From Geothrix paludis (GTDB lineage Bacteria; Acidobacteriota; Holophagae; Holophagales; Holophagaceae), in contig NZ_JAKZLC010000001.1 of the NCBI RefSeq assembly GCF_022808815.1, positions 1,054,001 to 1,118,000 of the forward strand: a stretch of DNA of 64,000 nt, written 5' to 3'. A program made the translations under genes and the position numbers. Shown in pieces: positions 53,898-54,116 of the stretch. Positions within the stretch are counted from its first letter, which is position 1. Each line of letters starts with the position of its first letter. The notes beneath the pieces are model-generated. The model saw only the letters and a list, made by a program, of their open reading frames with translations, did not search any database and had not been told where the DNA came from.

Positions 53898-53941
53898 AAG
53901 GGCCCCGTTGGGGCGCTTGGGTGGTACCGGTGGTCGGACTC
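53898..53941 (-). repeat. duplicated tRNA-Leu 3' end plus terminator hairpin
   Basis: Aligns with 54006-54049 at 39 of 44 positions. It includes the hairpin GGCCCC-GTT-GGGGC and an exact 20-base copy, TGGTACCGGTGGTCGGACTC, of the tRNA 3' end. The loop and lower-stem differ between copies while the tRNA-derived part is identical. Confidence 0.88.
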
Positions 53942-53980
53942 CGGTTCCCGCCGCGCGGCTGGCTGGCCGCCATCCGCGAC

Positions 53981-53998
53981 TTCGAGCCCGACCACCGG
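53981..53998 (+). repeat. inverted copy of tRNA-Leu T-arm/acceptor
   Basis: TTCGAGCCCGACCACCGG on the plus strand matches the tRNA-Leu sense sequence (TTCGAGTCCGACCACCGG) at 17 of 18 bases, opposite in direction to the tRNA, just beyond its terminator. Confidence 0.85.
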
Positions 53999-54005
53999 AT
54001 ACGAG

Positions 54006-54024
54006 AAGGGCCCCATCGGGGCCC
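54006..54024 (-). terminator. terminator after tRNA-Leu(CAA)
   Basis: GGGCCCC-ATC-GGGGCCC stem, followed on the minus strand by TTCTCG, directly after the tRNA. Confidence 0.65.
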
Positions 54025-54029
54025 ATGGT

Positions 54030-54116
54030 TGGTACCGGTGGTCGGACTCGAACCGACACTCCTTTAGGGGGAAACGGATTTTGAGTCCGTCGCGTCTGCC
54101 ATTTCGCCACACCGGC
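54030..54116 (-). tRNA. tRNA-Leu (CAA)
   Basis: Acceptor GCCGGTG / CACCGGT, anticodon loop CTCAAAA giving CAA (reads UUG), long variable arm (TTTCCCCCTAAAGGAGT), T-arm GTCGGTTCGAGTCCGAC, encoded CCA at 54032-54030. Confidence 0.95.

Follow-up and report, generated by a model that had tools for sequence, protein, structure and literature searches.

What leaves a tRNA gene followed by copies of its own 3′ end, in both inverted and direct orientation, is the question raised by tRNA-Leu(CAA) of Geothrix paludis. The gene lies on the minus strand of a 64,000-nt stretch of DNA, the whole of which was analysed and is referred to here as the window. An earlier note on this DNA had placed downstream of the gene a terminator, an inverted copy of the T-arm and acceptor, a direct copy of the tail including CCA, and a second, diverged terminator-like hairpin. 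These positions hold on re-reading of the sequence: the inverted copy has a single mismatch over the stretch that was claimed, the direct copy is identical, and the second hairpin is present (Table 1). A further element of this kind follows tRNA-Ser(GGA) in the same window.

Table 1. Parts of the two tRNA-linked elements in the window, with the evidence for each.
Feature	Position in window	Strand	Basis
tRNA-Leu(CAA), host gene of the element	54030..54116	-	ARAGORN; Rfam RF00005, 58.4 bits
Terminator-like hairpin no. 1, GGGCCCC-GAT-GGGGCCC with T-rich run	54008..54024	-	read from sequence
Left arm, inverted T-arm/acceptor copy, 17/18	53981..53999	-	sequence; relatives show same layout
Type-B core, shortened by 60 nt	53942..53980	-	R2 match 53936-53986, E 3.5e-7
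Direct copy of the last 20 nt of tRNA-Leu(CAA) including CCA, 20/20	53922..53941	-	sequence
Terminator-like hairpin no. 2, diverged copy of no. 1	53900..53916 (about)	-	read from sequence
tRNA-Ser(GGA), host of the second type-B element of the window	37468..37558	+	ARAGORN
Terminator hairpin of tRNA-Ser(GGA)	37562..37582	+	read from sequence
Inverted tRNA-Ser(GGA) tail, 19/20	37595..37614	+	tail comparison
Type-B core behind tRNA-Ser(GGA)	37609..37716	+	R2 match G000:C1:1091609-1091716, E 5.9e-8
Short direct repeat of the Ser T-arm, 3′ half only (GAATCCCCCA)	37738..37747	+	read from sequence
Inverted Ser tail no. 2, in tandem unit	37791..37810	+	56 nt at 96% to first

The direct copy behind tRNA-Leu(CAA) starts exactly at T-loop position 57. 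The core between the arms is 39 nt long, and its aligned span is 51 nt versus 111 nt in full-length members. Relatives have the absent part, which includes the apical hairpin, and so does the Cys element of the same genome. In full-length Leu relatives, the segment that is missing from the window copy carries GGCCAG at both ends, and the 60-nt loss probably occurred between these two repeats. The second hairpin is near-identical to the first in two relatives (G009 and G024). Folding of the block, proposed as a check in the earlier note, gave z = -4.65 for positions 53890-54116, with 0/200 shuffles as stable, a value to which the included tRNA itself contributes. The Leu(CAA) block is a shortened member of a Geothrix repeat family in its own genome. 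An Rfam scan of the whole 64-kb window returned three tRNAs and no other family. Downstream of tRNA-Ser(CGA) (window 28324-28413), a terminator and a decayed inverted tail extend to about 28480; this tail matches at 13/20, no better than the tails of other genes, and the flank is perhaps an old element.

Similar copies are found at many tRNA genes of this genome and of its relatives. For the complete set of 45 tRNA genes called by ARAGORN in the G. paludis genome (a 46th RF00005 match is degenerate), the 20-nt tail preceding CCA was compared with the tails of the other 44 genes in the 400 nt downstream of each gene. A gene's own tail ranked first in direct orientation at 6/45 genes and in inverted orientation at 9/45, with about one expected in each case; among these 15 first ranks, those of Lys(ctt), Lys(ttt) and Asn reach 14/20 only and are possibly due to chance. 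The clearest copies belong to Cys, Leu(caa), Phe, Met, Gln(ttg), Asp, Arg(tct) and three Ser genes, and flanks read by eye add three Pro genes, Thr(cgt), Arg(ccg), His and others, whose arms have diverged. The usual layout is tRNA, terminator, inverted copy of the gene's own 3′ end, hairpin core and, in some cases, a direct tail with CCA. It is also found behind the tmRNA gene.

In six Geothrix genomes taken together, 26/176 genes have downstream an inverted copy that matches at 16/20 or better, versus 0/39 genes (taken from 86 tRNA matches) in two control genomes of the same class; the first figure is not an unbiased rate, because the five genomes other than that of G. paludis were sampled partly at known element loci. 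Direct copies follow 13/176 and 2/39 genes, respectively. One of the controls (G027) has a full direct tail downstream of two genes, and the own inverted tail was best in 2/39 control genes, at 12-13/20. The earlier note had proposed such a comparison of flanks, had suggested a family of small elements copying tRNA tails, and had named against this idea a lack of copies at other tRNA genes and in relatives. That outcome did not occur when tested, and the suggested family is borne out genus-wide by the own-tail tests and by the model searches described below. A one-off duplication behind tRNA-Leu(CAA) is ruled out, as the family is genus-wide.

One copy of the repeat consists of about 80-110 nt of hairpin-rich core with T-arm sequence at its borders. 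Type A, hosted by Pro, Thr, Arg, Asp, His and Met genes, is composed of three stems, namely an apical hairpin whose loop is often the 7-nt CTWGATG, an outer stem and a second hairpin, with T-arm sequence after them. In an alignment of 36 type-A sequences (A1, picked for clean alignment from 56 units), two-sided changes occur in 14/23 pairs. The covariation score is 0.368 versus 0.158 in shuffles, with 0/500 as high, and it is lost when the partner is slid; further pair types number 22, below the 25.3 of the shuffles, and 2/23 modelled pairs are unpaired in most sequences. The core stems change in compensatory pairs, as a covarying structure does. Such change is expected from template switching as well as from RNA function.

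Type B (model R2) is one long hairpin, hosted by Leu, Cys, Ser, Gln, Gly(ccc), Val and tmRNA genes, by Glu tails, by Arg(tct) of G. paludis and, as judged by eye, by Phe. Of ten extracted Leu/Cys members, seven have an aligned span of 111 nt and the other three spans of 51, 70 and 159 nt; in the seven, nine pairs have changed on both sides. G-U pairs make up 17/723 in core stems versus 23/600 in tRNA acceptor stems and are not clearly rarer, which leaves their scarcity indecisive as proof of change at the level of DNA. Behind the tmRNA gene of G. paludis stands a type-B element (L411, contig C4 near 276400), and in several relatives a third core type (GGTGGAATTGCCGCTGC...) forms the first unit behind tmRNA, followed by a type-B unit. 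A derivation of the core from a tRNA, to which the CTWGATG loop, a GAGTGG motif and the right-hand T-arm, which by eye all look like those of a class-II tRNA, had pointed, was rejected, as the tRNA model matches none of the cores in nine loci.

The cores are common to different tRNA genes, and the arms match whichever gene stands upstream. For type A, 36 first units with a full left arm were compared, using an 8-nt arm and five arm types. The left arm is the exact complement of positions 47-54 of the unit's own tRNA in 34/36, versus a mean of 13.4 and a maximum of 23 exact matches in permutations, which here and for type B treat the units as independent although they are related by descent; the own tRNA is uniquely best in 36/36. 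The arm bases are unpaired in the modelled stretch, and pairing inside the core therefore does not explain the match. For type B, 45 of the 47 placed units were compared (L422 was left off, and L406 is without a tail within 120 nt), and the arm matches its own tail at 12/14 or better in 33/45 (permuted mean 6.2, maximum 12). Set against 14 tails, the own tail is strictly best in 27/45, tied in 7 and lower in 11. The 18 arms that are not strictly own-best comprise 8 tmRNA, 5 Ser, 3 Gly(ccc), 1 Leu and 1 Gln; in most of the tmRNA exceptions, the first unit retains the acceptor end only.

Arms also follow differences in their host genes between species. The T-stems of His and Pro(tgg) vary among species and the arms vary in step, with orthology assumed. 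Another example is found at T-loop position 57 of tmRNA, where the arm reads TTGAA in G. paludis, whose gene has TTCAA, and TCGAA in three relatives (G015, G009 and G018), whose genes have TTCGA. A repeat family with host-matched arms, present in Geothrix and some other Holophagaceae, is well supported.

Members of the family are closely tied to RNA genes. Type A was placed for 50 of 114 matches, omitting L327, further copies of loci that had been sampled twice and most later array units: 40/50 lie within 450 nt behind a same-strand tRNA, 3 behind a bare tail and 5 at contig edges, and 2 were left unclassified by the script, one of which by eye stands behind a tRNA 3′ half (L324) and the other without a visible tRNA (L322). 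For type B, 47 of the 89 matches listed were placed, and 42/47 lie behind a tRNA or tmRNA gene (8 tmRNA) and 3 behind a bare tail; the other two, read by eye, follow only the last bases of a tmRNA and of a Ser-like tail. An RNA gene or bare tail thus stands upstream of 43/50 type-A and 45/47 type-B elements. When DNA of the Pro(ggg) element was compared with its own genome, nine of ten matches fell behind six tRNA genes, and the tenth lies within tRNA-Pro(cgg) itself, whose T-arm the element's arm matches.

The same Pro(ggg) DNA is found in 23/25 genus genomes and in 0/16 others. The type-A covariance model, run over 396 genomes of the phylum with stricter filter settings, detects 25/26 genus genomes, 4/13 other genomes of the family and 0/357 in the rest of the phylum; three of the four Holophagaceae genomes outside the genus have a single match each, the weakest at E 2.9e-4. 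The type-B model detects 35/47 genus genomes. A pattern scan returned 31 stretches, mostly from Geothrix or Holophagaceae, and 4 further records scattered over other groups, and the type-A model found nothing in these four non-Holophagaceae records. At one and the same locus, the element is present in some species and absent in others; by eye, the flanks of filled and empty sites are too diverged to map the insertion to the base.

Two unusual loci were also seen. In a genome of another Holophagaceae genus (G149, L320 1781-1934), a tRNA-like gene that by eye is Thr-like is split in its anticodon-loop region; the intervening segment, roughly 75-80 nt long, is made of nested hairpins and contains GATTCGAATC. 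It lies in a compact tRNA array, which also has a type-A element between Pro and Gly. The other, in a Geothrix metagenome-assembled genome (L327), is a palindrome that has a terminator-like hairpin at its centre and extends for at least 2.3 kb to either side, as far as the retrieved sequence goes; it is probably a misassembly at such an element.

Direct tails start at few positions. An exact tail copy of at least 12 nt ending in CCA occurs in 16/211 gene/genome cases, and starts at position 57 in 11/16 (Cys, Leu and Phe), 2 nt later in one (Phe) and in the T-stem in four (Asn, Met, Pro(tgg) and Thr); a 20-nt search gives a direct tail of at least 17/20 in 17 gene/genome cases. At several loci, a further copy of the terminator, the inverted arm and the start of the core comes after the direct tail. 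Such tandem units are 93% identical over 58 nt at Cys and 96% over 56 nt at Ser(gga) in G. paludis, and identical by eye at Leu in G024. The duplicated terminator described in the earlier note is accounted for by this unit of tail, terminator, inverted tail and core start, which is seen in relatives as well as at the Cys and Ser(gga) genes of the same genome.

Genomic islands occupy some of the host genes, and there the element is found past the far end of the island, together with the old tail; hence it is not part of the island. The bare tails look like attR sites, and the elements behind these displaced tails indicate that islands push the element away and do not bring it. For instance, a displaced tRNA-Thr tail in G020 adjoins an island with a phage-type integrase gene (PF00589, E 5.1e-23), and the Glu(ctc) element of G. 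paludis lies about 7 kb from the gene, behind a partial tRNA-Glu. The earlier note was right that a plain integration scar fails to explain the inverted copy, given elements beyond the far end of an island. Ordinary scars of integrated islands are a very improbable explanation and were ruled out: direct tail copies do resemble attR sites and the G020 island does border a displaced tail, but scars give no account of the inverted copies, the shared covarying cores or the tandem units, and the elements persist past the islands' far ends.

Further traces of mobile DNA were noticed near tRNA genes. On contig C1 of G. paludis, outside the window, there is a degenerate tRNA-Leu-like gene (L053, about 2881-2969) and, behind tRNA-Leu(TAA), a reversed tRNA-Leu-like fragment (L052, 2475-2512); these two pieces are separated by about 25 kb and possibly mark where an island starts and stops. 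G018 has 71 tRNA matches versus 45-49 in five other genus genomes with the same search, and its dense tRNA cluster (contig C14 near 161000) suggests a mobile element.

On balance, if only just, we regard the family as a lineage-specific palindromic repeat behind RNA genes with a T-arm, whose arms are rewritten by template switching and whose tails and arrays arise by unequal exchange. Every tRNA would supply the T-arm consensus (GGTTCGANTCC or close to it) as a seed, and a core behind a new gene would therefore begin as a quasi-palindrome. The tail, the palindromic terminator and the left arm would then make up a near-palindrome, in which template switching during replication would convert the left arm to match the local tail as its reverse complement. 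The second terminator, the arrays and the CCA-bearing direct tail would stem from unequal exchange between the right-hand T-arm of the core and the T-arm of the tRNA; the window copy would have lost its 60 nt after those steps. We infer this mechanism, and the cores are taken to be mainly self-maintaining repeats. Template switching has been reported to make and repair hairpin stems and to generate multi-base compensatory changes (PMC8794818).

One case resembles template switching, namely Pro(tgg) of G018, which has perfect pairing where relatives have an internal loop and which fits a change in either direction. Comparison of near-identical genome pairs caught no rewriting event. Against template switching, the spread of homologous cores between genes needs a further route, and the T-loop junctions and the presence or absence of elements between species would also fit a recombinase. 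A more tentative reading, possible in our judgement and short of probable, is that the repeats constitute a new class of genetic element, which would recognise the T-loop, lodge behind genes with T-arm and CCA and adopt the local 3′ end in both orientations, such that one core family would occupy much of the tRNA set harmlessly.

Unlikely, though with points in its favor, is a mobile element that is set at T-loops by a trans-acting recombinase and supplies a new tail in the manner of tRNA-integrating islands. tRNA and tmRNA genes are classic integration sites, phage-type integrases act at these very genes, the junctions are fixed at the T-loop or T-stem, and loci are filled in one species and empty in another. 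However, an element that supplies its own tail would be expected to damage a tRNA of another type, yet cores span many tRNA types; the elements are too small to hold a gene, and islands displace them instead of carrying them. RAYT (PF01797), the one recombinase family surveyed, occurs in 3/25 genus genomes, that of G. paludis included with one gene. A phage, plasmid or viral origin was rejected, as one 171-bp type-A query gave no phage or plasmid match and one exact type-A pattern gave no match to viral contigs.

It is likewise improbable that the element acts as a structured readthrough RNA of the tRNA or tmRNA unit, in which the left arm would pair with the tRNA tail as a trap, decoy or maturation control; an RNA pairing with the tRNA 3′ end was the second possibility raised in the earlier note. 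Compensatory changes, the frequent CTWGATG loop, the stable fold of the block and a left arm that stays complementary to the tRNA itself are all consistent with such an RNA. Behind tRNA-Arg(TCT), the inverted tail begins about 2 nt past CCA with no intervening terminator (L027 1498-1574), in G. paludis as in G002, G015, G018 and G020, and a readthrough RNA from this gene could pair directly with the tRNA 3′ half. A terminator usually separates the gene from the element, however, the core type differs or is lost at one and the same gene between species, and template switching predicts compensatory change too. A terminator usually lies between CCA and the inverted copy, which also led to rejection of reverse transcription with the tail as primer and the inverted copy as primer-binding site.

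Several known systems share features with the Geothrix repeats. The nearest of them, RtT RNA (RF00391), comprises repeats behind E. coli tyrT. These carry a copy of the tRNA 3′ end and are known from one tRNA locus. The Geothrix repeats similarly stand behind a tRNA gene and copy its 3′ end, but occur at many tRNA genes and at tmRNA, with inverted copies and gene-specific arms. In nine element loci, a cmscan with the RtT model found no match at E up to 1 and all non-tRNA Rfam matches were below gathering; with the window giving tRNAs only, RtT and other Rfam RNAs were rejected. REP/BIME sequences are also short intergenic palindromic repeats with hairpin cores and tandem arrangement, whereas the Geothrix repeats are placed behind RNA genes and their ends vary with the host gene. 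The scarcity of RAYT in the carriers' genus, and a location of the placed copies that is not dispersed between ordinary genes, rule out this family.

Miniature inverted-repeat transposable elements (MITEs) are likewise small and non-coding with inverted ends. The terminal ends of MITEs are constant; those of the Geothrix repeats change with the host gene, and MITEs were rejected on this ground. No partner transposase was identified. tRNA and tmRNA attachment sites share the direct copy of the gene's 3′ end, but the Geothrix repeats have no gene content, have inverted arms and have a core common to unrelated tRNA genes; the window block has the direct repeat of a tRNA 3′ end typical of an island, with a 39-nt core and neither integrase nor cargo between the repeats. 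Template-switch hairpins share the reverse-complement copies and multi-base compensatory changes, and in the excerpts consulted are described for RNA genes and how these have evolved, with no mention of a family of repeats (PMC8794818). Searches of the open-licence literature, bioRxiv excluded, brought up nothing on such repeats in Geothrix or Holophagaceae. We file the family among tRNA-linked palindromic repeats, with arm tracking and the occurrence at tmRNA as its new features.

Elements of this kind could mislead the calling of att sites and island boundaries and the annotation of tRNA pseudogenes. Ordinary transposition does not account for a repeat that bears the end of the local gene. 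If a recombinase places these repeats, it would be an enzyme new to science, one that uses the T-loop as a universal address. If template switching rewrites them, Geothrix would hold a natural, genus-wide record of this mutation process in which the template tRNA is visible, and from which its rate and reach would be measurable.
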